Shown one piece after another: positions 2,688-22,615 of a stretch of DNA of 28,283 nt. How positions within the stretch are numbered: the stretch's first letter is position 1; each line of letters begins with the position of its first letter. A program made the translations under genes and the position numbers. Below the pieces are notes generated by a model. The model was not told where the DNA came from. It ran no database searches and saw only the letters and a program-made list of their open reading frames with translations. The stretch is taken from positions 1 to 28,283 of the IMG/VR virus record IMGVR_UViG_3300030102_001498; one strand, written 5' to 3'. The DNA is from a virus.

Positions 2688-2698
2688 TAGTAAATATA
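2688..2698 (-). promoter_or_regulatory. Repeated promoter-like motif, copy A
   Basis: On the minus strand this reads TATATTTACTA followed by TAAAAAGAC and the GTG start of the 122-residue virion gene, only 9 nt away. The 11-mer recurs at 4959-4969 and 14926-14936, each time just before a gene block, and inside the sigma-like gene at 18168-18178. It resembles the Bacteroidota -7 box (TAnnTTTG) with the final G replaced, and no TTG sits at the expected -33 position. Confidence 0.5.
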
Positions 2699-2731
2699 AA
2701 AAAACCTAATTTATTACACATATATATAGAA

Positions 2732-2755
2732 AAAGACAGGTATTTACCTGTCTTT
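2732..2755 (-). terminator. Hairpin terminator after the probable tail-tube gene
   Basis: Minus strand: AAAGACAGGTA, a 2-nt centre, then TACCTGTCTTT followed by more T (five in a row) and CTATATA. This is a strong stem with a U-tract, placed about 40 nt after the stop at 2795. It should end or attenuate transcripts from the capsid block before the motif at 2688-2698 restarts transcription. Confidence 0.7.
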
Positions 2756-2794
2756 AACTAAATAATATATATAATGCCTTAAAAAGGGCTTGAT

Positions 2795-3346
2795 TTATGA
2801 TGCCGTTACTGTAACAGTAAATCCTGCATTGTCAAATGGTGCAGTCGTATATGACTGTACTAATAAACAAGGTTCTGATTCTGCACCTGTAAATGTTAAA
2901 TCATAACCATTCATGTCACCAAATGCAACACCTGATGCAGTTGTACCTGCTGATAATTCTAATCCATGATCTGCACCTAAACACCAAATTACATTTTGTC
3001 CATTTCCTTGTTTTTGATTCAATTCTACAAACACTAATAATCTGTTTTGTGCTAATAATTTAATTTCATTACGATCACCAACAGTCATTTTGTGTAATTT
3101 AATATTTACAGATGGTTCATAAAATACTGTACCATTTTCAACACTTGGTTGTATAGTTTCAGTAAATGAACCTGTACCACGTGGTAATGCGTATTTATAT
3201 AAATTAGTTGTAATATCTAAATCAGTAACTTCACCTGCACTTGATGTAACAGTTGCATCTTCATGTTGTGCAAAATAGATGTTTTTTATTCCACCCATAA
3301 TGTCACGGCAGTCCAATTGTCTGCCTTTACTCAATTCACATGCCAT
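2795..3346 (-). CDS. Probable major tail tube protein
   Basis: A 183-residue soluble protein starting at ATG 3346 with MACELSKGRQLDCRDIMGG. It has a balanced alpha/beta composition, then repeated strand patterns (LYKYALPRGTGSFTETIQ, FYEPSVNIKLHKMT) and ends in FDNAGFTVTVTAS. The MAC-L-KGR-LDCRD-GG opening is a pattern I recall from Bacteroidota phages in the gene following the major capsid gene. Size and beta content fit a tail tube subunit; a second capsid-associated protein is the main alternative. It lies between the capsid gene (a hairpin in the gap) and a terminator, so it is probably made at a high level with the capsid. Confidence 0.5.
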   Translation of the reverse strand: MACELSKGRQLDCRDIMGGIKNIYFAQHEDATVTSSAGEVTDLDITTNLYKYALPRGTGSFTETIQPSVENGTVFYEPSVNIKLHKMTVGDRNEIKLLAQNRLLVFVELNQKQGNGQNVIWCLGADHGLELSAGTTASGVAFGDMNGYDLTFTGAESEPCLLVQSYTTAPFDNAGFTVTVTAS

Positions 3347-3373
3347 ATTTTTATATGTTTTTAGATGCTATAT

Positions 3374-3397
3374 GCAAGGGATTTTTACACCCCTTGC
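3374..3397 (-). other. Hairpin between major capsid and next gene
   Basis: GCAAGGG (3374-3380) pairs with CCCTTGC (3391-3397) around a 10-nt A/T-rich loop. On the minus strand no U-tract follows. It could lower readthrough from the capsid gene or protect the 3' end of its mRNA. It is one of the few G+C-rich spots in the genome. Confidence 0.5.
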
Positions 3398-3414
3398 TTT
3401 AAGCTAGTTAATAA

Positions 3415-4278
3415 TTATGAGTGATATACAAAATCTGATGCTACACCAACCTGAACACCTGCCGTCCATGATGCAACCATTCTTACTGTATCTTCACCTG
3501 TGATGTTTTCTAAATCTAATACTTTAATTGTTGTTAAATCACTATCTAATGATGTACCAAAGAAAATATTTGATTTTTGCCCTGCATACATTACGTTGTC
3601 TGCAATACCTGGACAAACTGCGATTTTGATACCCTCAAATTCAGGTGTATACTGCCCCATATGGTTAAATGGAAACGCTGATAAAGCTGAAATTGCTGAT
3701 ATATATAATCTGTATGTCTTTTTGTTCATATAGATATATAAATCTTCTTTACCATATACTGCTGTTGGTATGTTTGCTACTAAATTACCTAATTCAGTAA
3801 TAATATTACCTGTACCTGATCCTGAAATAAATGCACCACCTGCACTTGAAGATGTCATTGATCCTGTTGCAATTTTGTCAAATTGTCCTGATGTACCAGT
3901 TGTACCCTGCCATATAGACGTTTCAACACTATCTGCAATGCTATCAGCTAAATATGATGTTGCATATGCAGTAAAATCATCTAATTTTTCATATGACCAG
4001 TCACTTATAAACGTACTCTTGCATACGTCAAGGTTAATTTGGAATGGTTCGACAAATAAAACAGATTCTGTCAAAGTTAAAGATGCACTATTTTCATTAA
4101 ATCCACAATCCTTATCTTTTACAAGATTTGCACCTGCTACTTTGTTTACGACTTCTTTAAAATTTACGTTTTCACGTACTGTCATAAACTCTAATGATTT
4201 TGCTTGTTTTAAAGCTACATTCAGATATAAACCTGCATGTTTTCCAGCATACGAGCTGGACGTTATTGATACTCCCAT
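3415..4278 (-). CDS. Major capsid protein
   Basis: A 287-residue protein that builds the head shell. It starts at ATG 4278 with MGVSITSSSYAGKHAGLYL, then LEFMTVRENVNFKEVVNKV, a Cys-containing segment with TLTESVLFVEPFQINLDVC near residue 66-85, and a long Gly/Ser loop around 125-155 that could be exposed on the shell. The second half carries NKKTYRLYISAISAL and a C-terminal block ending VGVASDFVYHS. The opening and the PFQINLDVCKSTF-type segment are recalled from capsid proteins of flavobacterial phages; an HK97 fold is likely but not provable by eye. Its placement right after the acidic scaffold-like gene (4 nt gap) supports the call. No N-terminal prohead-cleaved delta domain is evident. 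Confidence 0.75.
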   Translation of the reverse strand: MGVSITSSSYAGKHAGLYLNVALKQAKSLEFMTVRENVNFKEVVNKVAGANLVKDKDCGFNENSASLTLTESVLFVEPFQINLDVCKSTFISDWSYEKLDDFTAYATSYLADSIADSVETSIWQGTTGTSGQFDKIATGSMTSSSAGGAFISGSGTGNIITELGNLVANIPTAVYGKEDLYIYMNKKTYRLYISAISALSAFPFNHMGQYTPEFEGIKIAVCPGIADNVMYAGQKSNIFFGTSLDSDLTTIKVLDLENITGEDTVRMVASWTAGVQVGVASDFVYHS

Positions 4279-4282
4279 TTTT

Positions 4283-4930
4283 TTATTTATTTAAGTTATT
4301 AAAATTGTATAAATACTTTTGTTGTGATGTCATTTTATCATAATCTTCTTTTGACATTTCAACTTTTTCCTGTAATTTTTTAGGAAATTTTGTTAATTTA
4401 ACAGGTTCTTCAGCTGGTTTTTCACCTAATTCTTTTACCTGTTTTGTTAATTCTGTGTTTTCTTCTTGCAATTCTGCAATGTTTTCATCTTTAGATAAAT
4501 TTTCACCTCTTAATTCATCTAATTCAGATGTTAATCTTGCAATGTCATTTCTAACTTCTTCGAGTAATTCTTTAACTACTGCACCTATTTCTGCAAATAA
4601 TTGTGCGTTGTCATCTGACATTTCTTCTTTTTCTTCATCTTCGTATATTTTATCTTCATCTTCTTCTTTTTCTGCTTCTTCAACCATTGATGCTATGATA
4701 CCCTCTTGTTCAACAATAAATTTCATACCATCTTCAGTTTCATATTCACCAACTGGTAATGGCATTTGTGTACCATCTTCTACTAATACGTTTACTGCGA
4801 CACCCTCAGCAAGAGCATCTGCTTCTGATACAATTATAGTACCATCTGCTAGTTTGCCCTCATATGCTAATTGAGTATTTTCTTCTTTCTCAATTCCCAA
4901 GGCAACTCTAATTCTAGTTTTTAAGTCCAT
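4283..4930 (-). CDS. Capsid scaffold-like protein
   Basis: A 215-residue, strongly acidic protein. Residues 20-80 form a small beta-like domain (YEGKLADGTIIVSEADALAE, PLPVGEYETEDGMKFIV). Residues 82-105 are almost all Glu/Asp/Lys, and about 110-170 form a coiled coil with leucine heptads (LTSELDELRGENLSKDENIA). A basic C-terminal end with KFPKKLQEKVEMSKEDYDKM could contact the shell, as in other scaffolding proteins. Position immediately before the capsid gene is the usual one for a scaffold. It begins a unit: the repeated promoter-like motif lies 28 nt upstream. Confidence 0.7.
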   Translation of the reverse strand: MDLKTRIRVALGIEKEENTQLAYEGKLADGTIIVSEADALAEGVAVNVLVEDGTQMPLPVGEYETEDGMKFIVEQEGIIASMVEEAEKEEDEDKIYEDEEKEEMSDDNAQLFAEIGAVVKELLEEVRNDIARLTSELDELRGENLSKDENIAELQEENTELTKQVKELGEKPAEEPVKLTKFPKKLQEKVEMSKEDYDKMTSQQKYLYNFNNLNK

Positions 4931-4958
4931 TTTTAAAAATTTATATTTAGGTTATTTA

Positions 4959-4969
4959 TAGTAAATATA
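4959..4969 (-). promoter_or_regulatory. Repeated promoter-like motif, copy B
   Basis: Minus strand TATATTTACTA followed by TAAATAAC, 28 nt before the scaffold ATG. Its downstream bases match copy C almost exactly (TAAATAAC), and both copies are preceded by CAAAA(C)TAAAC. It sits between the stop of the frameshifted XkdF-like product (4985) and the scaffold-capsid genes. Confidence 0.5.
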
Positions 4970-4984
4970 ATTAAGTTTATTTTG

Positions 4985-6198
4985 TTACTTTTTTGCATCA
5001 ATTTCTTTTAATTTACTTATTGCCCAATTAATGCCACTTGATCCACCCCATGCATCCCACATTAAACCCCCACAACCCTCACTATATGGTACATCTTTAT
5101 GTTGTTGATGTCTTTTAAATGATGCCATACGTGCAATTGTATCACGTGTTATTGGCTTTTTATTTGCTAATTGATTTGCACGTGTCCAACCTACACGTGT
5201 ACCACAACTACTACCATTTTCTTTTTTCCACTTAATTGCCCTTTTTGCATTGTTTACTGCACCTTGTGGATAATCATTATATGATTCTAGTATTTCTTTT
5301 TTTTCTTTTTTTTCTTTTTTTTTTTAGCATCAATAGGTACACAATTAGGTACTTTTTTACCATCTTTTATTTTATGACCTATTGGTTCATAACCACTAGT
5401 ACATGGATTAGGTGTAATTAATTCAGTTTCCATGCAACCACAATCTTCTTGTAATATTTCTGATAAATTACTAATAATATCATGATCTGCACATGGCATA
5501 TATACTGTTTTACCATCTAATGTGTGTTCATGTATACCATCACAACCTAATTCTTTTGCTTTCTCTAATGCTTCATCTTCATTGTCATATAATGGCAAAT
5601 CTATTGCACCATCTTTACCATCTGTAACCATGCTACCTACACGTGCAAACTTGCTCATTTTAGCCATTTTGTCTACAAAGTACCCCTCAATACTAAGTCC
5701 TTTTAATGTACCCTCTTTTATTTGATTCCATACGTCATCATTGTTTATACGCATTGATACAAACCATGTACCCTTTGGTAAATTATAGCCATATAAATTA
5801 GATTTGTCAATTTCAGAATTTTCTACTATCCAACTTTCAACTGTATGAACACCTGTTACTTTATTGTCATGTTGTACTGTTGCATTATTATTATTGTTAT
5901 ATTTTAAATACATTTCTGATGCTTTTTTTACAGTTGCTTCTGTAAAGTACACATAATATTCTTGGTTTTTATCTGCATCAAATCTAAAAATTTGTTTGTT
6001 TGGTATTAATGCAGGTGACACTAATAAACGTTTTTCTTCATTTACTTTTGCAAAAGTCAAATTGTTTTTTGCTTTATTAAAATATACAAAATCCTGTTCT
6101 ATTGCAGGTTCTGTAACTAAACTTATTGCATCAATTGCTAATTCTTGATTATCATCATCAATAATTAATTCTACTATTTTTGTTGTCTTTTTTTCCAT
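4985..6198 (-). CDS. XkdF-like head protein, disrupted by a poly-A frameshift
   Basis: As written, the frame from ATG 6198 stops at 5287 after 303 residues ending in eleven lysines and Tyr. Adding one base to the A11 run (5315-5325) instead joins it to an open frame ending at 4985, giving 404 residues. Residues 1-190 look like the XkdF-type putative phage serine protease (KIVELIIDDDNQELAIDAIS at the start, HTVESWIVENSEI, GTWFVSMRI, LKGLSIEGYF). A Cys-rich stretch follows (DCGCMETELITPNPCTSGYE). The rescued tail has SYNDYPQGAVNNAKRAIKW, CGTRVGWTRANQLANKKPIT, ARMASFKRHQQ and GCGGLMWDAWGGSSG, a module I recall fused to XkdF-like proteins in flavobacterial phages. The role is probably prohead maturation; neighbours are the tape measure and scaffold. 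The lesion is probably a sequencing undercall, though real slippage is possible. Confidence 0.75.
5315..5325 (-). other. A11 homopolymer at the XkdF-like frameshift
   Basis: The minus strand carries eleven A, then G-A8-G-A8-G. In the assembled phase the run reads as lysines to a stop at 5287. One additional A gives Lys/Glu repeats leading into the conserved C-terminal domain. Such runs are typical sites of indel errors and also of polymerase or ribosome slippage. Confidence 0.8.
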
Positions 6199-6201
6199 AA
6201 T

Positions 6202-7977
6202 TTATATTGTTGCTTTTCTTCTAATATTACTTAATCTTTGTTGTTCATCTGTCATATCATCAGCTACTACAAATGCCTTAACAACACCTGTTGTCATACC
6301 ACCTGATCCTGTGTCTAATGTACCACCATCTGCAAAACCTACACCACCACCTGCTTGATTAATTTGTGATAATATTGGTTTAAACATTCTAGTTGATTTT
6401 GCATTAATTACAGTTTCACCTTTACTTAATCTTGCATTTACACTATCACTTGTACCTGAACCATAACCACCTACCATACCACCCTGTGCAAAACTAGGTG
6501 TAGGAACATTATTTATTGCTGATAAATTTCGTAAACCAGTTGCTATTGCACCTGCCATTGCTATTGGTGCTAAAAACGTACCAATGACTGGTATTTCCAA
6601 TGCACTTTCATATGCTTTTTGTGCTGATGTATATGTAGATATTGTAGTTTCAACTACTTTTATTGCTTTAAATGCACCTGTTTGTTCACCAAATAATCCA
6701 CTAATTGCATTTAATGTACTTGCAGTTTGTTCTAAATCTTGTTGTTGTTGTTGTATTCTTAAATCCCTTAATGCCTTGTTTTTTTGTTTTTCTAAACCAA
6801 CTGTGTCCATTCCTGCTTTTTTTGCTAATCTAAATTGTTCATCAAAATGTGCAGTAACTTCTGCTATTTCACGTTCACGTTCTGTTTGCATTTCTAAACC
6901 AATTGCAATTACTGTATCACGTCTTTCATTTTCTAATGATATTTGGTTTGTCATTTGTTCTGACATAAAACCAGTTATTTGTGCTTCTATTGCCTTTTTT
7001 TCATTTAATGCTTCTTGTAATGCTACTTGATTTTCTGTATTGTTTAAAGTATTTAGTTGTGCCTGTGCTTCTGCTATTCTTATATCAGCTAATGCCAACA
7101 TATCTTTTTTCTGTGTGTCTAGTATTTCTTTTAATTTGTTATTTGCTTTTATACGATCTTCAAAAGTTGCATTCTCATTATCACGTATTTGTCTTTGTTG
7201 TTCTGCTAATCTGTCATTTTCTTCTACTAAACCCTGTAATTGTGCCTGTGCTAATCGTGCAGTTTTTTCTAATTCTTTATTTGTTTTTGCCTGTTCTATT
7301 GCATTTGTAATACTAATATCTTTAATACCACTTACAACTTGTTTTGTTATATTTGTTGCTTCACCTACTGCTTCACTAAAATTTGATACTATTGATTTAC
7401 CTGCATCAACTGCACCAATTGCAGTATCTTCTAATGCTTGTTTAGTATCATTAATTCTAGCAGTAAATTCTATTATTTTTTCATCATCACCAGTAAGTTT
7501 TGCAAATGCTAATATAGTTTGTTCAATAGCTAATTTAATACCAAAAAAACTTAATTTAAAAGGTGTTAATACAATGGTTATCATACCACCTAATACTTTA
7601 CCTAATGCATCAAAATTTTCACTAGATTTTGCAACGTTTTCATATACACCAACTAATACATTAACAATTTCATTAAATACAATAGATACAGTATCAAATG
7701 CTATTGCAATTGCATCTGCTATTTTTTGATTACGCATTAATGCTTCACTAAAAAATTCAAATGCTTTTTGTAATACTATTACAATACCTGATGCTTTTAA
7801 AATAGAACCAAATGATGCACCTACTTTTTTAATACCTTTTGCTAATATTCCAGTATTTTTTTCAGTTTTTTTTGTTGCATCACCAATACCATCAATGCCT
7901 TTTTTAACATCTTCTAATTCTTTTCTTAGATTACCAACGTCTGCTGATAATTTTAATATTACTTCTTCCTGTGCCAT
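6202..7977 (-). CDS. Tail tape measure protein
   Basis: A 591-residue protein that sets tail length and is thought to pass into the host envelope during infection. It opens with MAQEEVILKLSADVGNLRKE. Hydrophobic segments lie near 60-78, 125-150 and 465-490. A long charged coiled coil spans about 225-430 (many Q/E/K and AQAQLQGLVEENDRLAEQQR). The C-terminal region has Gly-rich FAQGGMVGGYGSG then NARLSKGETVINAKST and FADGG, a signature common at tape-measure C termini. Its length is short for the class; at the usual rough ratio of about 0.15 nm per residue the tail would be near 90 nm. A 48-residue gene overlaps its start by 19 nt, and the XkdF-like gene follows after 3 nt. Confidence 0.9.
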   Translation of the reverse strand: MAQEEVILKLSADVGNLRKELEDVKKGIDGIGDATKKTEKNTGILAKGIKKVGASFGSILKASGIVIVLQKAFEFFSEALMRNQKIADAIAIAFDTVSIVFNEIVNVLVGVYENVAKSSENFDALGKVLGGMITIVLTPFKLSFFGIKLAIEQTILAFAKLTGDDEKIIEFTARINDTKQALEDTAIGAVDAGKSIVSNFSEAVGEATNITKQVVSGIKDISITNAIEQAKTNKELEKTARLAQAQLQGLVEENDRLAEQQRQIRDNENATFEDRIKANNKLKEILDTQKKDMLALADIRIAEAQAQLNTLNNTENQVALQEALNEKKAIEAQITGFMSEQMTNQISLENERRDTVIAIGLEMQTEREREIAEVTAHFDEQFRLAKKAGMDTVGLEKQKNKALRDLRIQQQQQDLEQTASTLNAISGLFGEQTGAFKAIKVVETTISTYTSAQKAYESALEIPVIGTFLAPIAMAGAIATGLRNLSAINNVPTPSFAQGGMVGGYGSGTSDSVNARLSKGETVINAKSTRMFKPILSQINQAGGGVGFADGGTLDTGSGGMTTGVVKAFVVADDMTDEQQRLSNIRRKATI

Positions 7978-8105
7978 TTACCTAATATTATACTATTGTT
8001 TTTTGTTTTTACTTTTATTTCTGAAAGTATTGGTAATATTTGTTTTAAGTTTGCAAAACCTACAATTATACCTGATCCGACTAATTTAAAATTTTCATGT
8101 ATCAT
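7959..8105 (-). CDS. Small hypothetical protein (48 aa) before the tape measure
   Basis: A short frame from ATG 8105 to TAA 7959, starting MIHENFKLVGSGIIVGFANL and ending in basic LGKWHRKK. The start overlaps the previous stop by one base (TAATG) and the end overlaps the tape measure start by 19 nt, which is the spacing used throughout this genome and the main argument that it is real. Residues 8-28 are mildly hydrophobic, without a convincing membrane segment. Function unknown. Confidence 0.6.
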   Translation of the reverse strand: MIHENFKLVGSGIIVGFANLKQILPILSEIKVKTKNNSIILGKWHRKK

Positions 8106-8851
8106 TATATAAAACTTGTTTTTAATTCATTTACCATAACAATAATACTCCAATCTATTGTTACTCTTAATTCACCTGTGCATGTAACTTTTATGTAGTC
8201 AGGTGTGTCACTTATAGCAGTAAAATCATTTGTCCAACCATTTATTCCATGATTATGGTTTGTTAAATTGTTTTGTCCAATTCTACTTAATACACCTGCA
8301 TGTACTCTAAATGTATTACGTTGATATTTACCCATACATGCATCATCACTACTATCTATACGTTTTGCTAAAATATAACATTCTAATGCTATTACAGATT
8401 CTTTAGTTTCATCTATTATAAATCTTTTACCACTTTCACCACCAATAAATATTTCTGTTTGTGTTGCATCTGTTGTTCTACCCTCAAACATTAAAACACT
8501 ACGTTGTGTACGTCCTAAACTGCTTGTAATAGCATGATTAAATTCACTATGTCTTGTTGTATGTGCAAATTTGCCTATTGTATGAGTATTATCTACATTT
8601 GCTAATGTGTTATAATCACCAATTATATTATTGTTTATTGCATCTTCATCTATTGTATTACCTATGCCTAAAATATTTCTATTACCTGTATAATTATCTA
8701 CTGGTTTTATAACATTATCAATAATACATGTATTATTCACAAATTTACCACCTACCATTTTACAATCTGTACTATCACCTGCAACTTCTGAACCTTTATC
8801 ACCAATAAAAGTTATTACATTATCAACTATTTGAAATATTCTTTTTGCCAT
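8105..8851 (-). CDS. Tail-associated fibre or adhesin-like protein
   Basis: A 248-residue protein. Residues about 55-100 contain repeated Asn/Gly/Ile turns (NRNILGIGNTIDEDAINNNI, then GDYNTLANVDNTHTIGKF), resembling the short left-handed beta-roll repeats of trimeric adhesin heads. The C-terminal half is beta-rich with His/Asn segments (NNLTNHNHGINGW) and ends in VTIDWSIIVMVNELKTSFI, compatible with a trimeric fibre tip. It is coupled to the large baseplate gene (TAATG at 8851) and precedes the tape measure. A receptor-binding role is inferred from repeats and position; the family was not recognised. Confidence 0.55.
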   Translation of the reverse strand: MAKRIFQIVDNVITFIGDKGSEVAGDSTDCKMVGGKFVNNTCIIDNVIKPVDNYTGNRNILGIGNTIDEDAINNNIIGDYNTLANVDNTHTIGKFAHTTRHSEFNHAITSSLGRTQRSVLMFEGRTTDATQTEIFIGGESGKRFIIDETKESVIALECYILAKRIDSSDDACMGKYQRNTFRVHAGVLSRIGQNNLTNHNHGINGWTNDFTAISDTPDYIKVTCTGELRVTIDWSIIVMVNELKTSFI

Positions 8852-11241
8852 TATATTTTAATTAATTCAACTTTTGCTAAATCTGTTTGTCCTGCTTTAT
8901 AATCTATTTTTGTAACTCTATATTGTTGGTTATTTATAATAATAGTATCTGCAAAACTAAATGCTTGTATGTCGGTTTCTGTTAAATATACTTTTGCTTT
9001 AACTAATACACGTTCTTGCGTATACCTTTCATTAACATAATCAAACCAAAATTTATTATATAGATTTTGGGGTGTTGCAAATGGTGTAGAAATAAAAACG
9101 TTTTGTGTATAACCAAAATTTAAATCGTGATCTGCAATTGTTAAATCATCAGGATATTTTTGGAAATGCCCACCTGATGTATATTTTTGTGATGTCCGTA
9201 CACCTGTAACATCATTTAATGTTGTGTGTATATTTTTTGTATTTCTAAAAATTAATCTTGGTTTGTTTTCAATTTGTTCATATACTCCATCTTCATAACC
9301 ATAACATGTACTGTACCTTAATCCACTTGACAATTGTTGAAAAACTGTTGCACTAAAAACTTCTAATTTTATTTCTTTTTCATCAATATAATCAACTGGT
9401 ATTTGTATACTTATTGAACCATAATCTTCATCTGTCGCATTTTTATATGTAATTAAATTAACATCATTTTCATCATTACTATATGACCATGTAATTTTAC
9501 TTGGTATACGTTCATAATTTTGTAATATTTCTGTTGTATCAATTTTATTTGACCAATTTTTTGTTGTACCACCTTTAATAAAATCATTATATGGTTCTAT
9601 TTTTAATATACCATTTCTGTTTTCTATTACTAGATTAAACATTTTAGTTATGTCTTTGACAATATCTGCTAATTTAACATCACCATGATTATCATGTATT
9701 TTAGTTTGTATTGCATTTGTAGTTGAAGATAATGGTGCAACTGCTAATCTATTAGCAAAAAAACCTGTTAATAAATCATGTCTAAGACACATTGCATGTA
9801 GTGATGAATTTTCAGTAGTATTACCAACACCTTTAAAAAATTTAAAACCTGTACCAACTTGAAATGGTGTTGTGTTTTGTGTAAAATTTGCATTTAAATG
9901 AAATTGACATTCACCTGTAAATACAGTATCATTTAAAAGATGCCAATTATGTGAATAACGTGCAATCCAGGCATCACCACCACTTTTTTTAATTCTAAAA
10001 TCTAATGTATCACCTGCATTTAATACAATTGTTGTTTGACCTTGTATTTTTTTATACATTATTTCTTGTTGTGGTGAACCACCTGCTTGTTCAAAAATAC
10101 TATCTTGTTGGTTAGGCATTGTAAATTCTTGTATAATATGATCTGTGTCTGTTGATCCATCATTTTGCCTACCTATAATTGATATTGTGACTTCTTCAGT
10201 TGCAAATACATGTACTGTTAATGATACAAACACCTTAAAATTATCACTAGGTGATGTAACTGTACCATTTGTACCCATTAAGTTGCCTGGATCATTTGTA
10301 ATACCACTAACTGTTGTTGGTTCAATAGTGTATGGTATATTAGTATAATTAGTTGTAATATTATGTACTTGATCAAATGAAAATTTTGTAAAAATAGTGT
10401 TTGCATTTTGTATAACTGGCACATAATCATTATCAATAAAAAGATGGTCAATACTTGGTGTTGATACAACTGAAGCACTACTATTATCAATAAATCTATA
10501 TGCACTACCAAAGTTTGAATTTATACGACTATCATTTAAACCTGTGTCCATATAAATTTGTTTAAAAAAACTACTATTAAAAAAATCACTATCATATTCA
10601 AAACCTGCAAATTCAAATATTTTATTAATTATATTAAACATTCTAATAAATGGCTGATAATTAGTTGCACCAATCATTTGTGTTATATGTCCTGAAGAAT
10701 TACCAATAATGCCTAAATTTTGCACTAATGAATAATATATTGCCTGTGTATTATTACCATTTAGTAATGTAATACCTGTACTAGAACCAAACACATCTGT
10801 ACTATCATTTATATTTGTATCTGTAAAATCATGTGTAAATTCAGAAAAATTTAAATCTGACAAAGTTGCATCACCTAATACTTCAATCAATCGTACACTT
10901 TCACCTAATAAATTAACTTTATATTTAGTTTCTGTATCTAATTTTACTATTTCATTTAAATACAACAAACCCTCAAATACTGAAATATTATTTACAAATA
11001 ATTCACATTTATGCCCCTTTAAAGTATCATATTGTGACACATCACTTTGCAAATCATATAAATAACCAAAATATCTATTATTATTTTTTGTTGCAGGTAA
11101 ATCAAAACTTTTACTATAATGACCTGTTTTACTTTCAATATCACGTAAATCATCTACACCATATGTAATATTTATACTTTCATCACCATATGTATCTAAT
11201 TCAAAATCTTTTGTGTCTGTATATACAACTAATCGTATCAT
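8851..11241 (-). CDS. Large baseplate/tail hub protein
   Basis: A 796-residue protein, the largest in the genome. The N terminus (MIRLVVYTDTKDFELDTYGD, then DLRDIESKTGHYSKSFDLPA and TKNNNRYFGYLYDL) is a pattern I recall from Bacteroidota phages in the position of a distal tail/hub protein. The middle is Asn/Thr-rich beta structure with an apparent carbohydrate-binding-like region at about 320-450. Residues 510-590 include an ADIVKDITKMFNLVIENRNG segment typical of phage hub domains, and the end is YRVTKIDYKAGQTDLAKVEL. It probably joins the tail tube to the fibres and makes first contact with the cell surface. It overlaps the preceding tail gene by 4 nt (ATGA). Confidence 0.65.
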   Translation of the reverse strand: MIRLVVYTDTKDFELDTYGDESINITYGVDDLRDIESKTGHYSKSFDLPATKNNNRYFGYLYDLQSDVSQYDTLKGHKCELFVNNISVFEGLLYLNEIVKLDTETKYKVNLLGESVRLIEVLGDATLSDLNFSEFTHDFTDTNINDSTDVFGSSTGITLLNGNNTQAIYYSLVQNLGIIGNSSGHITQMIGATNYQPFIRMFNIINKIFEFAGFEYDSDFFNSSFFKQIYMDTGLNDSRINSNFGSAYRFIDNSSASVVSTPSIDHLFIDNDYVPVIQNANTIFTKFSFDQVHNITTNYTNIPYTIEPTTVSGITNDPGNLMGTNGTVTSPSDNFKVFVSLTVHVFATEEVTISIIGRQNDGSTDTDHIIQEFTMPNQQDSIFEQAGGSPQQEIMYKKIQGQTTIVLNAGDTLDFRIKKSGGDAWIARYSHNWHLLNDTVFTGECQFHLNANFTQNTTPFQVGTGFKFFKGVGNTTENSSLHAMCLRHDLLTGFFANRLAVAPLSSTTNAIQTKIHDNHGDVKLADIVKDITKMFNLVIENRNGILKIEPYNDFIKGGTTKNWSNKIDTTEILQNYERIPSKITWSYSNDENDVNLITYKNATDEDYGSISIQIPVDYIDEKEIKLEVFSATVFQQLSSGLRYSTCYGYEDGVYEQIENKPRLIFRNTKNIHTTLNDVTGVRTSQKYTSGGHFQKYPDDLTIADHDLNFGYTQNVFISTPFATPQNLYNKFWFDYVNERYTQERVLVKAKVYLTETDIQAFSFADTIIINNQQYRVTKIDYKAGQTDLAKVELIKI

Positions 11242-12668
11242 AATGTTTGTACCCTTGTATTGTGACCTTTTTTAATTTGTATAACATATTGCATTAACAT
11301 GTCATTTGCACTTGTTTGTTTTATATATTCTTTTTCTTCTACACATACAGGTACAAATTGTACTGTTGTGCCTTTACCAACTTGCATGTATACTTGAGGT
11401 GATATAAATAATTCTTTTAATGCAGTTGCTTCAGCTTCAGTAATATAATCTGTATTGGCTTCAATCATTTCTTCTGCTACTGTCTGTAATGCACGTTTAC
11501 CACCCTGTGCTGATATTTGATCATAACTTCTACCTTGATAATCACCATAATTAGATTTATAATATGTTTTTTTCAGTTGTGTTGTTTTTGTAGATTTTTT
11601 ATAAAAGTTGTAATAATCCCATGTGCCTAAACTATTTACATATGCTAATCTAATAGTTTCAAAACCTTTACAATCATCATCTGTTAATCTGACAGTAATG
11701 GTTTCTGTCATTACTGTACCTAATATACCTGTACCTTGTATAGTATAATATGATGTGTCTGCACTTTGCGTACCATTTCTTATTTCTATGTTGTTAAAAC
11801 CAACACCTGCATAAAATAAAGCAGGTACAGTATTATATGAATGTAATGCATCATGATAATCTAATGACACATTACTTTGTCCTGATGTACCACCTATTGT
11901 ATTACTAAATAAAGTATGATTTATTGTTGCTAATAAACTGTTACTACTATCATATAATTTAAATGTTATAAATACTAAACCTGAATGTTTTGTATTGTCT
12001 GATAAATCAAATTTACCTTGAAAAAATGCAACTAAACCAAAATCACTTTTTCTCCATTTACGATCAATTGTACTTGGCATTGTTGATAAAAATTTCTTAC
12101 TTGTACCATTTGGTAAATATGACAACCAGTCAAAACTTTCAAAACCATCTTCTAATTGTTCAACTGCGTTTGTAACACTAAATATTTCACTATTAATTTG
12201 CCCTGTTATTGCAACGTTACCAGTTGCTGATGTTGCAAATTCTTCACGAAATTGCACAAAAAATCTTCTAAAGTTTTTTCTATTACCTGCAAAACTATCT
12301 ATTTGATGTATTGAATGTTGTTTTGTACTAAACCCTACACCATTAAATTTACTTTCAAATTCAGGTTTACCAGGCACTAATGTGTTTGGTATACCTAATG
12401 TGTCTGTACTGCAATTATCTGCTAATATATTTGCAATATTAAATACTGCAAATCCTTTTGCGTTTGCAGGTGCTTTTAAAGTTGCTACTATATTTTGTTG
12501 TCCATATGGTGTTGTGTCACCCTCTACATCATTCATGTATATATGTGCAACATATTTATGTCTAAATGTGTTTGTTAATGTACCACCACCTACTATAAAA
12601 ATAACATCACCATGTCCTGGTCTTATTCTTAAATCTGTACTTGGTTGTTGTTGTATAATTAATGCCAT
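11238..12668 (-). CDS. Tail/baseplate structural protein
   Basis: A 476-residue beta-rich protein starting at ATG 12668 with MALIIQQQPSTDLRIRPGHG, then FRHKYVAHIYMNDVEGD and KAPANAKGFAVFNIANIL. The C-terminal third contains FETIRLAYVNSLGTWDYYNF followed by a basic stretch, ALKELFISPQVYMQ and VQFVPVCVEEKEY. The IRLAY-N-LGTWDYYNF block is recalled from large structural proteins of Bacteroidota phages. No signal peptide. It lies between the gp10-like neck gene and the hub gene and is coupled to the latter (ATGA), so I place it in the baseplate or distal tail. Exact role unknown. Confidence 0.55.
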   Translation of the reverse strand: MALIIQQQPSTDLRIRPGHGDVIFIVGGGTLTNTFRHKYVAHIYMNDVEGDTTPYGQQNIVATLKAPANAKGFAVFNIANILADNCSTDTLGIPNTLVPGKPEFESKFNGVGFSTKQHSIHQIDSFAGNRKNFRRFFVQFREEFATSATGNVAITGQINSEIFSVTNAVEQLEDGFESFDWLSYLPNGTSKKFLSTMPSTIDRKWRKSDFGLVAFFQGKFDLSDNTKHSGLVFITFKLYDSSNSLLATINHTLFSNTIGGTSGQSNVSLDYHDALHSYNTVPALFYAGVGFNNIEIRNGTQSADTSYYTIQGTGILGTVMTETITVRLTDDDCKGFETIRLAYVNSLGTWDYYNFYKKSTKTTQLKKTYYKSNYGDYQGRSYDQISAQGGKRALQTVAEEMIEANTDYITEAEATALKELFISPQVYMQVGKGTTVQFVPVCVEEKEYIKQTSANDMLMQYVIQIKKGHNTRVQTL

Positions 12669-12674
12669 TATTTT

Positions 12675-13199
12675 TTAGTTTAAAAAATCTTTAGTTGCAA
12701 ATTTCAAAAATTGTTGTACATCATCTGCATATGCTTTAGTAAAATCAGCAGGTAAATTTTTATAGTGTTGTCTAAATGCATTACTAAAAAACCTAGTTGC
12801 AGGTAAACCAAATAATGCAATTGATCTACCTATTAAAAATGCTAAACTTTTACGTTTAATAAATCTACCTTTTTTATCACGTCCTTGTATACCTTTGCGT
12901 TTTGCCCAATTTTCAATTACACCTTTTTTTATGTTTTGTCCTTTAAATTTGTATGGTGATTTATATGCTTTACGTTTACCACCTTTACTGCCTTTTACAC
13001 CTTTATCTACAAATTTACCATAATCTGCCATGAAAAAGTCCAACTCAATTGCACCACTAGGATATACTTTTACATTATAATCCATACCCTGTGCTAATTT
13101 ACCACTATCAATATGATCTTGTTTACTTAAGTTTTGTATTGACTGGTTTATAACCTTTTGTGCAAAACGTTCTAATACTTTTTCTGTGTTTGCGTACAT
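12675..13199 (-). CDS. HK97 gp10-like neck/tail-completion protein
   Basis: A 174-residue basic protein. Pattern: an N-terminal helix (LERFAQKVINQSIQNL), HIDSGKLAQGMDYNVKVYP, then DFFMADYGKFVDKGVKG, a Lys/Gly-rich loop at about 69-108, and a C-terminal helix. The motif of a short beta pair followed by Y-x-x-F/Y-V-D-K-GVKG is typical of HK97 gp10-type proteins, which close the tail tube or the neck. It starts on the stop of the previous gene (TAATG at 13199). A longer-than-usual basic central loop is the only oddity. Confidence 0.7.
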   Translation of the reverse strand: MYANTEKVLERFAQKVINQSIQNLSKQDHIDSGKLAQGMDYNVKVYPSGAIELDFFMADYGKFVDKGVKGSKGGKRKAYKSPYKFKGQNIKKGVIENWAKRKGIQGRDKKGRFIKRKSLAFLIGRSIALFGLPATRFFSNAFRQHYKNLPADFTKAYADDVQQFLKFATKDFLN

Positions 13200-13654
13200 T
13201 ATGCCGTTGCTACTACTATTTCAACATCAGTTTCACTTGCACCTGTACGTACAAATACGTCTGATATACTATGTGCTAATGTTGTAATTGCACCACCACT
13301 TGTATTACTATCAACTACTAATGCTGAAATAACAAAACTTTCACCTGCATCTAATTGAAACGCACAACCAACATTACTTTCTTCTGCAAATGTTATGTTT
13401 ATTGCGTTTGTATCATCAAGATTAGTAATACGCATATACTTAAAATCATCACTATCAAATACATTATTTGTAGGATCAGATGCAAATTCTACTAATGTAT
13501 GTGTTGTACTTGCTTTTAATTGATATACCCTGCTATTGTATTGTGCAATACCTGTAATTTCTTGCGTTGTTGTTTTGTCATATGTTACACCATTTAGTGT
13601 AATAGTTTCTTTTATGTCTACTGTTAATGTAGATGTTGTTACTGTTGTTGCCAT
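13199..13654 (-). CDS. Virion protein, beta-rich, unknown role
   Basis: A 151-residue Thr/Val-rich predicted beta-sandwich. It starts MATTVTTSTLTVDIKETITL, contains NSRVYQLKASTTHTLVEFAS, KYMRITNLDDTNAINITF and FQLDAGESFVIS, and ends EIVVATA. The pairing of RITNLDD-x-x-x-I with LDAGESF is recalled from small phage structural proteins near the neck genes, possibly a decoration or tail protein. No signal peptide. It lies between two neck genes and is coupled to the gp10-like gene by TAATG. Confidence 0.55.
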   Translation of the reverse strand: MATTVTTSTLTVDIKETITLNGVTYDKTTTQEITGIAQYNSRVYQLKASTTHTLVEFASDPTNNVFDSDDFKYMRITNLDDTNAINITFAEESNVGCAFQLDAGESFVISALVVDSNTSGGAITTLAHSISDVFVRTGASETDVEIVVATA

Positions 13655-13661
13655 TTATTTA

Positions 13662-14153
13662 TTAAATTATGTCACCTGCACATGCACTTGCATTAAAGGT
13701 GACTGTTATACTTATATCTGCTACCCAACCCGACACTTCATTGTCAAAACGTTCTGTAAATGGTGAACAACTTACATTGTCATTCATTCTAAAATCATTT
13801 TCCATATCACCAAATGATGTACTATGTTTAAACTGACTTATAAAATCACCAATTACTTGTAATGTATCACTTAGTACATCATTTTCATTTGCTTCATCTT
13901 TACTTACTAAATCCATAACATATAATTTTAATGCGTATGTCAATTCATTAGCAGTATAATTTGCACTTTCAATACTTAAATGTGACAATGCATATGCAGT
14001 ATCATTTAAATCAATTTCAAATATATCACCAAATGTAAATGTTTGTATATAACTGTTATCATCTGCAATTTGTTCATATAATTTAATTATATTTAACAAT
14101 GTTACATTTTTTTGTAATTGTCCTGCGTTATTTGTAAATGTTGGAAATGTCAT
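13662..14153 (-). CDS. Putative neck/tail terminator protein
   Basis: A 163-residue protein: QLQKNVTLLNIIKLYEQIAD helix, then FTFGDIFEIDLNDTAYALSH, a middle YALKLYVMDLVSKDEANEND and LSDTLQVIGDFISQF, and a beta-rich C terminus. The GDIFEIDL plus LYVMDLV-x-x-DE-NEND-LSDTLQ-IGDF order is a strongly conserved pattern I recall from Bacteroidota phages, usually next to the chaperone and gp10-like genes. Its ATG overlaps the stop of the frameshifted tail chaperone (ATGA at 14150-14153), which supports the longer chaperone product. A tail terminator role is inferred from location and size. Confidence 0.55.
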   Translation of the reverse strand: MTFPTFTNNAGQLQKNVTLLNIIKLYEQIADDNSYIQTFTFGDIFEIDLNDTAYALSHLSIESANYTANELTYALKLYVMDLVSKDEANENDVLSDTLQVIGDFISQFKHSTSFGDMENDFRMNDNVSCSPFTERFDNEVSGWVADISITVTFNASACAGDII

Positions 14154-14907
14154 TTTTTTATACTATTTAAATCTTTAGAATAACACAAAAATGTAAAACA
14201 TTCTTCTGCACATAATTCTAATACTTTATTTATTTTTGTTATATCACCATTCGCTAAATTATATATTACTCCATACCAACCCCATTTGTTGCTAAATTGT
14301 TGTTCTGTGTCATGTATGTTTTCTTCTTGTTTTTCTTCTTGTTGGAATATAATTGCAAAACGTTCAGATATTCCTTTGCGATAGTCAAAAAAAAATTTGA
14401 TGCACCATTAACCGTTGCAACACTTAATGCATCTTTAAATATTTCTGCAACTTTTAAACATTTTGTACTATCATAATCTTCTATATTATACTTTTTGTTT
14501 TTACGTTTTACAACTGGTCTGTATAATATAGCCATGATTTTATGCATATTTTTCCATATGTCATTTAAATAATTATCAAGATCAACAAATTCTGCCATTG
14601 TCATATCTTTTAAATTAGGATTAAAACCATATTCTACACCATCAACTTCTATTATATAGTTTAATGTTGTGTTTACTTTTTTTGTCAATAGTTTTGCAAC
14701 ATATTTTAATACAATATCTATGTCTGATTTTTTGCACTTTTCTAATGTTTTAAAAGGTGCGTTTGTAAAACAACTAATTGTGTTTAATGCTTTTGTATGT
14801 TTGTCTGTATCTTTTTCTATTTGCATAAATTTTTGATAACATGACAAACTAACTTCTGTCCATTTTTGTGGTATATAATATTCTTTGTTGTTTAGTGTTA
14901 ATAACAT
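14150..14907 (-). CDS. Tail assembly chaperone with apparent -1 frameshift extension
   Basis: The zero-frame product runs from ATG 14907 to a stop at 14266 (213 residues). A TTG at 14916 could add three residues but ATG is preferred. In the -1 frame an open frame continues from the T9 run (14387-14395) to TGA 14150, giving about 252 residues after a shift at residue 172-174. The alternative C terminus reads protein-like: FDYRKGISERFAIIF, then NKWGWYGVIYNLANGD and VLELCAEECFTFLCYSKDL, whereas the zero-frame end is low-complexity Lys/Asn. Lambda G/GT-type chaperones use such -1 shifts to make two products that coat the tape measure. Position between terminase and tail genes fits. The shift could also be a missing T in the run. 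Confidence 0.65.
14387..14395 (-). other. T9 run: candidate -1 slippery site or sequencing undercall
   Basis: The minus strand reads AAT TTT TTT TTG in the zero frame. A -1 slip gives TTT TTT TTT GAC and joins the open frame ending at 14150. T-T-T-T-T-T-T heptamers are valid slippery sites. A missing T in the assembly would produce the same picture. Confidence 0.6.
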
Positions 14908-14925
14908 TTGTATCAAGTTATTTAT

Positions 14926-14936
14926 TAGTAAATATA
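14926..14936 (-). promoter_or_regulatory. Repeated promoter-like motif, copy C
   Basis: Minus strand TATATTTACTA followed by ATAAATAACTTGATACAA and the chaperone ATG at 14907. It lies about 35 nt downstream of a hairpin (14971-15006), the same arrangement as copy A. No TTG box is found at the host -33 spacing. Confidence 0.5.
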
Positions 14937-14970
14937 AATTGTTTAGTTTTGGTGCGTATTTGTTTATTTG

Positions 14971-15006
14971 ACAGGTAGTGTATTTATGTTTTTGGTCACT
15001 ACCTGT
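14971..15006. terminator. Hairpin just after the large terminase gene
   Basis: ACAGGTAGTG (14971-14980) pairs perfectly with CACTACCTGT (14997-15006) around a 16-nt loop. Read on the plus strand it is followed by eight T; on the minus strand eight A precede it and no U-tract follows. It may therefore act mainly against antisense transcripts, or as a pause or processing site for minus-strand RNA. The stem shares GACAGGTA with the terminator at 2732-2755. Confidence 0.55.
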
Positions 15007-15011
15007 TTTTT

Positions 15012-16325
15012 TTAGTGTATATAGTATTTCCCTATATTAGGTTTTAATTCAAAATACATACGCATCATCAATGCATCAGAATAGTCAGGTGAACGTCCTA
15101 ATATGTTTTTTACTTTTTCTTTTGACACAATTGCTAATTTAGTGTCTTTATCTATTTTATCACGTCTGACTTGGTCTAATTCTTTTGTCATATGTTCTAT
15201 AATCTTTGTATTATTTGTTTTAACATATATCTGACCTGTGTTTATATAATCTGCTAATTTATAATAACATTGTGTTTTTAGATTCATGTAGTTTTCACCA
15301 TTTATTGGTTTACTATTATTGACAAATGGTTTTGCTTTTAATATGTCTGTTAAACCACCACCTACACCATCATCATCAACTACTATATTTTTTAATGGTA
15401 CGTTTTCTAATCTTTGTATTTCTCTTATTTCTTTTGATGCATCTGTTATACTATTTGCATCTAATACTTTAATTTTTTCTGCACGTAAACCATTCCAGTA
15501 TATTATGACAGTTTTATCTTTACCAAATCTTGCAACATCACATGATATATATTTATCACCACCACCAACTATTGTATTATCAAATATAGTTAATATTGCA
15601 TTATAATCTATTAATTTATCTATACTATCATCATATTCCCAGTTGCCAAATAATAACCTTTGTTTGCTTATTTCATCTAATTTTTTTAATTGATCTTGGT
15701 AATGTCTTGAAATGTGTATATTGTCAGTTGCTAATGCCTGGATAAACTTTCTATGTATTGGTAATTCATTTTGTTTGTCAGGTAAATAAAATTCATTGTA
15801 CACCCAGTTTTTAGCAGGATTACATGACATAAATAATTTAGGTATTAAATTATATTCATCTAATTTATACCTTATTCTTGAAGATAATATTGCTTTAGCT
15901 TTTTGCGTAACTTGATTACATTCGTCAATAAATGCCATACTAAGCTCCAAAGAACCTAAATTATCAAAATTAGGATCACTAGGATATAAGAACAAATCCT
16001 TTAATATAACCTCTGATCCATTATAAAATTTAATTACGTTTGATGCACCATTAAATGTATAATCTTTATTTGCTTTTAAACCCCAACTACTGCAAATTTC
16101 GAAAAAGGAATTTAAAGTTGTCTTTTTTAAATTATCGAGCTTAGATCTTCCGATTAAACAACGTATGCCTTTATATTTTATACATGACAATATAATCCAT
16201 GCACAACCAATATATGATTTACCACCACCTGCACCACCACCAAAAAGTATTTCTGTACTTTCATTGTCGAATAAATACTTTATTGCTTGACTTTGTTTTG
16301 GTGTAAATTCACAATCAATTGTCAT
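15012..16325 (-). CDS. terL: Terminase large subunit
   Basis: The packaging motor: an ATPase that drives DNA into the prohead plus a nuclease that cuts the concatemer. The 437 residues show Walker A GGGAGGGKS (29-37), Walker B AFIDE (131-135) with a following Asn, and an SCNPAKNWVYNEFY coupling segment (167-180). The RNase H-like nuclease domain has Asp263 in SCDVARFGKDKT, VVDDDGVGGG (315-324) and SPDYSDALMMRM (412-423). All expected acidic residues are present, so it should be active. It overlaps the small terminase by 11 nt. The tail block starts after the hairpin and motif beyond its stop. Confidence 0.95.
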   Translation of the reverse strand: MTIDCEFTPKQSQAIKYLFDNESTEILFGGGAGGGKSYIGCAWIILSCIKYKGIRCLIGRSKLDNLKKTTLNSFFEICSSWGLKANKDYTFNGASNVIKFYNGSEVILKDLFLYPSDPNFDNLGSLELSMAFIDECNQVTQKAKAILSSRIRYKLDEYNLIPKLFMSCNPAKNWVYNEFYLPDKQNELPIHRKFIQALATDNIHISRHYQDQLKKLDEISKQRLLFGNWEYDDSIDKLIDYNAILTIFDNTIVGGGDKYISCDVARFGKDKTVIIYWNGLRAEKIKVLDANSITDASKEIREIQRLENVPLKNIVVDDDGVGGGLTDILKAKPFVNNSKPINGENYMNLKTQCYYKLADYINTGQIYVKTNNTKIIEHMTKELDQVRRDKIDKDTKLAIVSKEKVKNILGRSPDYSDALMMRMYFELKPNIGKYYIH

Positions 16326-16677
16326 CTGTTAATTTGATGTTGATATGTATAGGTTCATCATCTGTTGTAATATCATGTTGTTGTTTTTCCCAGTAACCAC
16401 GTTTACGTCCTTTAGTTTTTAAATAAAAAATTGTTGCACTTGTATTGTTTTCTTGTATTTGTTCAAACAATTTACTTTCTGCAAAATCTAAACTTACATT
16501 TTCTATTTCTTTTACTTTGTTTGCAAAATCAATATCTGTCTTTAGCCACTTATAAAACGTACTACGTGGTACATCTACTTGTTTACATGCAGTTGTAACT
16601 ACACCTAAACATTGCTCTAATGCATCTAATATTGCTTCTTTTTTTATATGTCTACTTTTGTCTACCACAACATTCAC
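16315..16677 (-). CDS. terS: Terminase small subunit
   Basis: A 120-residue DNA-recognition subunit that binds the packaging site and loads the large subunit. The N-terminal half holds a helix-turn-helix: KKEAILDALEQCLGVVTTAC, then VDVPRSTFYKWLKTD (39-53), typical of terS-type HTH proteins. The middle helix (SLDFAESKLFEQIQENNTSA) should form the oligomer core, followed by IFYLKTKGRKRGYWEKQQ, a well-known phrase of this family. No ATG is in frame near the start; GTG 16677 is used and lies inside the end of the ParB-like gene (26 nt overlap), with GTG 16668 as an alternative. Confidence 0.85.
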   Translation of the reverse strand: MNVVVDKSRHIKKEAILDALEQCLGVVTTACKQVDVPRSTFYKWLKTDIDFANKVKEIENVSLDFAESKLFEQIQENNTSATIFYLKTKGRKRGYWEKQQHDITTDDEPIHINIKLTDDN

Positions 16678-17074
16678 ATTTAATAGGTAATTTATCTAAA
16701 TTAAAACCAAAATCTATTGATTTAAAACCCCATTCTTTTAATCTGTCTATTTCAAACCAATTAGCTAATTTGTCCTTATCAAATTTACCACCTAATTTAT
16801 TTAATTTTATATTAGTTTCTATTTCTTTGTCATATTCATAATTAACTTCTATACAAGGTAATTTATGTATGCCTAATTCAACTGCTATATTATAACGTTG
16901 ATGTCCACCTATTATAATATTTTTTCTGTCTATGTTACTATTTATAACTAATGGTTGTAATATACCTTTTTCTTTTATGTCTGCTTTTAATCTACTATAT
17001 TCTGTTTTTGTAATTTGTCTAGGATTATAATCAGCAGGTATTAATTCCCATGTATTTTTATTGATTATTTTCAA
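16652..17074 (-). CDS. ParB/sulfiredoxin-like N-terminal domain protein
   Basis: A 140-residue protein with a ParB-type fold: ADYNPRQITKTEYSRLKADI (14-33), GILQPLVIN (37-45) and the nucleotide-binding-type IIGGHQRYNIAVELG (54-68). The C terminus ends in IKCECCGRQK (Cys133, Cys135, Cys136), a likely zinc site or the remnant of a longer partner. In phages such domains often precede DNA methyltransferase or terminase genes and may mark DNA or regulate packaging. It begins at TTG 17074, overlapping the previous stop; no better start exists since the conserved WELIPADYNPR begins at residue 9. It overlaps the small terminase start. Confidence 0.8.
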   Translation of the reverse strand: MKIINKNTWELIPADYNPRQITKTEYSRLKADIKEKGILQPLVINSNIDRKNIIIGGHQRYNIAVELGIHKLPCIEVNYEYDKEIETNIKLNKLGGKFDKDKLANWFEIDRLKEWGFKSIDFGFNLDKLPIKCECCGRQK

Positions 17075-17779: not shown

Positions 17780-17954
17780 TTCTATATAATTTAATTATAC
17801 CATAAGGTTCAAAATATCTGCCATACACAACATCAATATCATCTAATTCATAATCATATAAATTAACACTATATTCTAATTCACCATATTCATTATAAAA
17901 TTCAATAGCAGGTATGTCATAACCTTTATATTTAGTCAAATCTTCTAATTTCAT
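17721..17954 (-). CDS. Hypothetical early protein (77 aa)
   Basis: A 77-residue acidic, tyrosine-rich protein: KGYDIPAIEFYNEYGELEYS, then DYELDDIDVVYGRYFEPYGI. It has no recognisable domain, membrane segment or signal. It lies between the sigma-like gene (23 nt overlap) and the zinc-ribbon-like gene (59 nt overlap). That long overlap makes its exact C terminus less sure than its core. A small early host-takeover factor is possible, but nothing in the sequence shows it. Confidence 0.5.
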   Translation of the reverse strand: MKLEDLTKYKGYDIPAIEFYNEYGELEYSVNLYDYELDDIDVVYGRYFEPYGIIKLYRNDEKTRFNGQGIQSPESKL

Positions 17955-18456
17955 TTATACGTTTCTTTATATATGTTTTAACGTTTTTTATTGTTGTAAA
18001 TATTGAACGTCTACTTATACCTGTTTTATCTGCTAATGACTGCAATGTATAACGTTTACCATTTATTTCACCAAAATGATATAATTTAAACATTTCACGA
18101 TCATACCAATACAATTCATCTAATAAAGATTCAATTAATTCTATATTTTCCTGTTGTGTTGTATCATTAGTAAATATAAACTTTGATATTTTCGTGCAAT
18201 CTTGCAATGTATGTTTGTCATAAAACCTTGCAATTTTATAATAGTATTGACTTGTTTTACTATGATACATATTTGCCATAATACGTGCTACAAAAAAAAA
18301 GAGTTTACCATCTTTTTTGATAAACTCAATTTGTTCTTCAGGATATTTAAACGTTGCATACAATGCTTCATGCAATAAATCTTCTGCTAAATCTGTTTTA
18401 CAAATGTTTTTTGCAATGTCTAACATTTTATTATATTCACGTTCTGTTAATTTCAC
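17932..18456 (-). CDS. Sigma-70-like transcription factor
   Basis: A 174-residue protein built like a small ECF-type sigma factor. Residues 22-70 have the region-2 pattern (DLAEDLLHEALYATFKYPEE, FFVARIMANMYHSKTSQYYY). Residues 105-168 have a region-4 pattern with ELYWYDREMFKLYHF and a helix-turn-helix YTLQSLADKTGISRRSIFTT ending in KNVKTYIKK. It would redirect host RNA polymerase to phage promoters. GTG 18456 is used as start; no ATG fits. It sits at the end of the early block, after the NinG-like gene and just before the late genes. The repeated motif TATATTTACTA also occurs within its coding sequence (18168-18178). Confidence 0.7.
   Translation of the reverse strand: MKLTEREYNKMLDIAKNICKTDLAEDLLHEALYATFKYPEEQIEFIKKDGKLFFFVARIMANMYHSKTSQYYYKIARFYDKHTLQDCTKISKFIFTNDTTQQENIELIESLLDELYWYDREMFKLYHFGEINGKRYTLQSLADKTGISRRSIFTTIKNVKTYIKKRINEIRRFD
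18168..18178 (-). promoter_or_regulatory. Repeated 11-mer inside the sigma-like gene
   Basis: TATATTTACTA on the minus strand, extended to TTTATATTTACTAAT as in copy C. Here it encodes the F-I-F-T-N stretch of the sigma-like protein. It may be chance, or an internal promoter for the small genes downstream. Confidence 0.25.
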
Positions 18457-18511: not shown

Positions 18512-18895
18512 TTACATCAATTTGTTTAATTCTTTTTTGTAGTATGCTATCATATCTTCATAATCTTGTTGTGTGTATTTAGCAGTTGAATTTGATAGTT
18601 GTATTAATTCATTAAATTTAACATCACCAATTTCTGCTTTTAGTTTGTTGCCAAAAATAAACTGTTGCCCCTGTTCCCAAATATTACACTTTTGGCATTG
18701 TACTCTACAATTATTTGTGTGCCAACGTGTTGCATAATGTCTACGACTTTGAAAATGTCCTGCTTGCATTTCTTTTACTGGTTTTGTAACTCCACATGTA
18801 TAACATTCTACATAACCATTTGCATCAGCATAATACCATCTAATGTATTTGCTAAAAATAACATCTAATTTTTTAGATAGTTTCTTCTTTGTCAT
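18512..18895 (-). CDS. NinG/Rap-like recombination nuclease
   Basis: A 127-residue protein matching the lambda NinG (Rap) pattern: CYTCG (Cys31, Cys34), QAGHFQSRRHYATRW (44-58), then CRVQCQKCNIWEQG (Cys67, Cys70, Asn71). Rap proteins bind and cut branched DNA such as Holliday junctions and help phage recombination and concatemer processing. The metal-binding Cys/His set is complete. The start overlaps the HTH gene end by 23 nt. A 55-nt gap separates it from the sigma-like gene, with a perfect ACATATATGT palindrome at 18481-18490 of unknown use. Confidence 0.8.
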   Translation of the reverse strand: MTKKKLSKKLDVIFSKYIRWYYADANGYVECYTCGVTKPVKEMQAGHFQSRRHYATRWHTNNCRVQCQKCNIWEQGQQFIFGNKLKAEIGDVKFNELIQLSNSTAKYTQQDYEDMIAYYKKELNKLM

Positions 18896-22582: not shown

Positions 22583-22615
22583 CAAATATACAACTATTTT
22601 GTAATTACTAACAAA
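22583..22615 (-). promoter_or_regulatory. Bacteroidota-type early promoter
   Basis: Minus strand: TTTG (22612-22615), 21 nt, then TATATTTG (22583-22590), matching the Bacteroidota -33/-7 consensus TTTG ... TAnnTTTG. It lies 24 nt before the first early ATG in the only long non-coding gap (22559-22674). It should be read by the housekeeping sigma factor of the host directly after infection. Confidence 0.7.

Follow-up and report, generated by a model that had tools for sequence, protein, structure and literature searches.

Candidate bipartite late promoters and a sigma-like reader in the genome of an uncultivated phage

What reads an 11-bp element, TATATTTACTA, that recurs before gene blocks of an uncultivated phage? 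The element lies in a stretch of 28,283 nucleotides (IMG/VR record IMGVR_UViG_3300030102_001498, positions 1 to 28,283; hereafter the window) whose gene map is on the minus strand and whose two ends carry a 98-bp direct repeat, so that the window probably represents a complete genome that was assembled as a circle. From the sequences gathered, the source is probably a marine phage of an abundant, uncultivated family, and the hosts are probably Bacteroidota, because relatives of its TerL protein sit in Flavobacterium, Pedobacter and Bacteroides genomes. We propose, with a probability of about 0.8, that the element is the core of four bipartite late promoters (A, B, C and D) read by the host core RNA polymerase together with an extracytoplasmic function (ECF)-like sigma factor encoded by the phage itself.

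A repeated core and its upstream box

Four exact copies of the core were found in the window, at 2688–2698 (A), 4959–4969 (B), 14926–14936 (C) and 18168–18178 (D), all on the minus (coding) strand, exactly where an earlier inspection of the letters alone (the sequence-only reading) had placed them. That inspection had guessed that fewer than one copy would arise by chance, and dinucleotide shuffles yielded a mean of 0.19 copies, with none of 100 shuffles reaching four. Searching the window with one mismatch allowed returned 9 copies against 5.7 expected, which is no excess, indicating that the signal is the exact 11-mer; an E. coli-type promoter scan of the window scored below shuffles. The flanks attributed to both B and C, TAAATAAC downstream and CAAAA(C)TAAAC upstream, were likewise present, and the TTG box of host promoters was, as claimed, missing at the right distance from all four cores.

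The copies held up, but not as a lone 11-bp element. In 4/4 window copies the core is preceded, at exactly 19 nt, by a second box, GYAMNAAA, which makes the unit GYAMNAAA-N11-TATATTTACTA; the box reads GTAATAAA at A (2710–2717), GTAACAAA at B (4981–4988), GCACCAAA at C (14948–14955) and GCACGAAA at D (18190–18197). GYAMNAAA has a coding-strand background frequency of 0.0018 per position, and four boxes in register out of four are therefore not chance. Relatives were collected by TerL, capsid and sigma searches, which gave 183 loci of uncultivated viral contigs; 29 contigs are syntenic, gene order being common to the full contigs, and seven lineages were defined by their own C-cores, lineage 1 (11 genomes) being that of the window. 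In lineage 1, with a relaxed box, 38 of the 40 forward core copies have the box, against 0/4 reverse copies. The two boxless forward copies are the second copies inside the sigma genes of G002 and G015, and these were judged to be chance occurrences, as were the boxless reverse-strand copies in G001, G002, G007 and G015. A scan of the whole collection for the bipartite pattern mixed in chance matches and is not used as evidence.

Candidate promoter A (2688–2717, minus strand; box, 11-nt spacer, core) is followed by the gene at 2310–2678, then by 2050–2307, 1356–2048 and the portal gene, which spans the window ends. Just upstream of A lies an intrinsic terminator (2732–2755, minus strand; stem AAAGACAGGT/ACCTGTCTTT plus a T-run), and a hairpin with a T-run is found 3′ of gp2795, ahead of A, in every relative covering that stretch, suggesting that A restarts transcription after the B unit. 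Downstream of B (4959–4988, minus strand) are 4283–4930, which encodes a probable scaffold-type protein, and the capsid-like gene at 3415–4278. C (14926–14955, minus strand) sits between TerL (15012–16325) and the gene at 14266–14916. D (18168–18197, minus strand) lies in the linker codons of the putative sigma gene, upstream of the genes for ParB-like protein (16652–17074), TerS (16315–16677) and TerL. The statement that the element precedes late blocks thus stands in so far as promoter-like sites precede the morphogenesis blocks; it needs amending in that the sites of this class are four and include the copy in the sigma gene.

The sites might instead bind another phage protein (ParB-like, HTH_36, or a packaging or replication factor) and not be promoters at all. 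The phage does encode ParB-like, helix-turn-helix and DnaA-C-like proteins, and one site is intragenic. However, all sites point in the same direction at a short fixed distance before genes, A stands after a terminator, D is replaced elsewhere by copies directly before ParB or TerS, and start codons in lineages 2 and 6 mostly lie 13 nt after the core start, as suits a promoter; we regard a mere binding site as highly improbable.

Related phages, in which the sequence-only reading had proposed to look for the motif, carry it at the same places; the absence from relatives that the reading had named as its own refutation was thus looked for and did not refute it. All four sites, each with box and core in the 19-nt register, recur in the near-complete relatives G002, G005, G011, G019 and G020, and partial relatives have those sites that their contigs cover. 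Site A is at the same place in G007 as well as in these five, and G015 has a one-mismatch copy. Eighteen fetched relatives (TerL 73–80% identical) keep site C between TerL and the gene that follows, as AAATACGCACCAAA-N10-TTTATATTTACTA, and the AAATACGCACCAAA part is nearly invariant among 14 relatives. Between the TerL stop and C there is also a hairpin without a T-run (14971–15006, minus strand; ACAGGTAGTG...CACTACCTGT), which folds in most relatives with differing stems and a similar AAACAA-rich loop; an attenuator, processing or stability element is conceivable.

The copy inside the sigma-like gene

Every close relative whose recovered sequence includes this stretch of the sigma gene has site D in the same place, down to 58–62% protein identity. 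One explanation is that D is a by-product of a conserved FIFTN peptide in an AT-rich genome, which would leave three late promoters and not four: AT-rich DNA often uses the codons TTT, ATA, ACT and AAT, and invariance extends to three other F codons nearby. Against this, the codons of FIFTN are invariant at 5/5 positions versus 7/63 of the other invariant residues (Fisher p=7.6e-5 for 14 non-redundant sequences, a comparison in which amino acids are not matched), and D shares with C both the 15-mer TTTATATTTACTAAT and the 19-nt placement of its box. Distant relatives encode another peptide there (LYIN/IYI), and the codon phase of the core shifts (TTA TAT ATT versus TTT ATA TTT), yet TATAT is kept, so that the constraint appears to be on the DNA. 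In several of the lineages with no D core in sigma, a copy with 0–1 mismatch stands directly before ParB (G031, G032) or TerS (G034, G041); these intergenic substitutes suggest that the role of D is to start the packaging block, and a coding by-product is, in our judgement, an unlikely account of it.

We also considered a truncated sigma made from D and rejected it, as D is followed by no conserved in-frame start. The position of D within the sigma's own disordered linker also implies that it would yield no additional full-length sigma. In two genomes, G024 (13141) and G037 (9655), the genome's own late core recurs without mismatch just upstream of the NinG–sigma pair (NinG is at 18512–18895 in the window), as if sigma were positively autoregulated there.

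The candidate reader and the concerted change of cores

The putative ECF-like sigma factor (17932–18456, minus strand) has 174 amino acids, with region 2, a disordered linker at residues 84–96, to which D maps, and region 4. Its AF2 model (pLDDT 79) consists of five helices, the linker and a four-helix C-terminal domain, with helices spanning 5–81 and 99–173. Sigma factors account for all of its best structural matches, with ECF members near the top (SigL 6dv9, Z 9.0; E. coli SigE 1or7, Z 8.9); the alignments to SigE and SigL span 132–139 residues, the large rmsd of the whole-chain matches reflecting domain placement, and SigE region 4 on −35 DNA (2h27) matched with Z 8.4 and an rmsd of 2.3 over 69 residues. 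Like ECF sigma factors, the model thus has no sigma regions besides 2 and 4, with a short linker between them. A sigma homologue is encoded by 29/29 syntenic contigs. No RNA polymerase gene was recognised among the open reading frames scanned, which were not all of them. The sequence-only reading had named a phage-modified polymerase as the simplest reader; the sites do lack the host signals TTG and TAnnTTTG, and we consider host core polymerase carrying the phage sigma the likelier reader. The window combines what would be expected of such a system: a sigma-like protein with regions 2 and 4, and a repeated, conserved non-host motif before late genes.

Among TerL-related contigs with no detectable sigma (L055, L059, L061, L062), no such repeated core was found after TerL; in L062 the sequence there is TATCTTTG, a host-type −7 box. 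In the stretches examined of cultured phages with related TerL (11b, phi10:1, P12002L) and of Flavobacterium and Pedobacter genomes, neither sigma (one insignificant match) nor the element was found.

Distant lineages have other cores, and within each genome it is the same one at A, B and C: TATATTTTATA, TATATATTATA, TATATACTnTA, TATATTATATA or TCTATTATATA. In a permutation test based on an equal-effort search, which examines A, B and D given C since lineages were set by C-cores, a lineage's own C-core fitted better than reassigned ones (1/5040 permutations each for A, B and A+B; 3/5040 for D). Allowing up to one mismatch, the 29 genomes contain 57 forward and 12 reverse copies of the C-core. 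Sigma and the rest of the genome appear, from sequence comparison, to be separated most strongly in G040: its TerL is 77–85% identical to that of the window clade and its sigma only 35–40%, its sigma belongs to lineage 2 (55–69%), and its late cores are of lineage 2 type. L009 and L019 resemble it. In these three and in L012 a window-type TerL is followed by a non-window promoter type, pointing to recombination near the boundary of TerL and promoter C; sigma has also diverged in G040, L009 and L019. Eight genomes (G029–G034, G037, G038) have an extra core of their own lineage directly before the homologue of gp5287, a prohead-protease-like gene, so the number of promoters seems to vary among lineages.

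Several observations weigh against a dedicated sigma and its promoters. Core divergence tracks TerL as well as sigma (Spearman 0.53, 0.49), and in distance-matrix partial correlations sigma given TerL gives a weak 0.15 (p=0.03), against 0.27 for TerL given sigma, so that coevolution of sigma and core is separable from common descent in G040-like recombinants only. Sequence profiles give sigma factors as weak matches (PHROG E 0.0017; the Pfam region 4 score lies below the cut-off), and Foldseek E-values are not significant. The box at D is weaker and less well placed in distant lineages.

The window's early signal is of another kind. A predicted host-type promoter, TTG-N21-TATATTTG (22583–22614, minus strand), precedes the early/replication block, and promoters at the equivalent position were found in eight genomes across lineages (G016, G019, G028, G030, G035, G036, G039, G041); judged from these sequences, the early signal appears to stay host-like while the late signal changes. 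Another idea is that the late sites are weak promoters of the host primary sigma, and that a phage activator bound to GYAMNAAA turns them on late. The core segment TATATTTA differs from the Bacteroidota −7 box TAnnTTT(G) at a single fixed letter, TATATTTG serves in the early promoter of the window itself, and the main sigma-A motifs of F. psychrophilum are variations around TAnnTTTG (PMC9723704). However, the late sites have no TTG box at −33, their final G is replaced at all sites in all close relatives, and the cores of other lineages (TATATATTATA, TATATTATATA, TCTATTATATA) depart further from TTG/TAnnTTTG, which the early promoter keeps at the equivalent place. Host primary-sigma promoters are therefore an unlikely explanation, and we prefer reading by the phage sigma.

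We suggest the following order of events. Early in infection, the host's own polymerase and primary sigma would read the TTG/TAnnTTTG promoter at 22583–22614 and express early genes, including sigma. The phage sigma would then redirect host core polymerase to D, C, B and A, its region 4 contacting the GYAMNAAA box and its region 2 melting the TATATTTACTA core. D would start the packaging block (ParB, TerS, TerL), C the tail block that follows and B the scaffold/capsid block, and A would resume transcription beyond the terminator closing the B unit.

The Bacteroidota −7 box covers −12 to −5 (PMC9723704). Applied to the window lineage, this geometry would give leaders of about 4–9 nt at A, 16–18 nt at C and about 28 nt at B. 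Most start codons in lineages 2 and 6 lie exactly 13 nt beyond the start of TATAT (in lineage 6 the counts overlap through shifts of one base); transcription would then begin at about the AUG, and the late mRNAs of these two lineages may be leaderless. Leaderless mRNAs are rare in F. psychrophilum, at 5.5% (PMC9723704). A wider proposal, to which we give slightly less than even odds, is that sigma together with three to five late promoters makes up a self-contained code whose specificity has been switched several times, all promoters of a genome at once, with one promoter in the linker codons of sigma and several lineages leaderless.

Known systems and remaining features

Late promoters of phage T4 have the sequence TATAAATA and are read by gp55, with no upstream box and with a sliding clamp needed. 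The window resembles T4 in its short AT-rich −10-type core and its small phage-encoded sigma; it differs in the box, which stands at the fixed 19-nt register in 38/40 sites of lineage 1, so that its sites are not of the T4 type. In phiEco32, sigma gp36 reads the middle/late promoters tAATGTAtA (PMC8948821, PMC7881722). That system, too, has a small phage sigma called ECF-like and low-copy late promoters, but these consist of a single element and gp36 is without region 4, unlike the two elements and region 4 of the window.

The closest experimentally shown system is phage 7-11, whose sigma gp47 reads the bipartite late promoters GTAAtg-(16)-aCTA (PMC8948821). Both have a phage sigma with region 4, few bipartite promoters before late genes and early genes transcribed from host-sigma promoters, and the sequences are alike in a box beginning GTAA and an end in ACTA (GTAAC...ACTA in the window). 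They differ in spacing (20 nt from GTAACA to ACTA in the window, 16 nt in 7-11), in host phylum and in the one window promoter inside the sigma gene. The likeness is one of working, and we claim no membership of the 7-11 sigma lineage: in a tblastn search of 50,697 phage records the window sigma had no match at E 0.01, and no sequence relationship to the phiEco32/7-11 sigma lineage was detectable. A search of PDB sequences with the sigma profile gave unrelated matches only.

Phage sigma factors with their own late promoters are already known from 7-11 and phiEco32; new here are the proposed intragenic promoter, the lineage-wide drift and the probably leaderless late mRNAs. If the proposal is true, these phages offer about seven sigma/promoter pairs as a natural series, in closely comparable genomes of the same gene order, in which the change in specificity of a sigma together with its few promoters becomes directly testable. 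They would also supply a clear case of a promoter conserved within the coding sequence of its own regulator, and a working annotation of early and late units and terminators for abundant uncultivated marine Bacteroidota phages.

Elsewhere in the window, the tape measure gene occupies 6202–7977, and the adjoining 5287–6198 encodes a head-maturation-protease-like product with a C-terminal run of about 11 lysines (KKKKKKKKKKKY). The 204-amino-acid protein of 19640–20254 has a match limited to the N-terminal third of C-5 cytosine methylases. The 363-amino-acid protein of 25117–26208 has no Pfam match and begins like a signal peptide, and 24392–24769 encodes a short exported thioredoxin-like protein.

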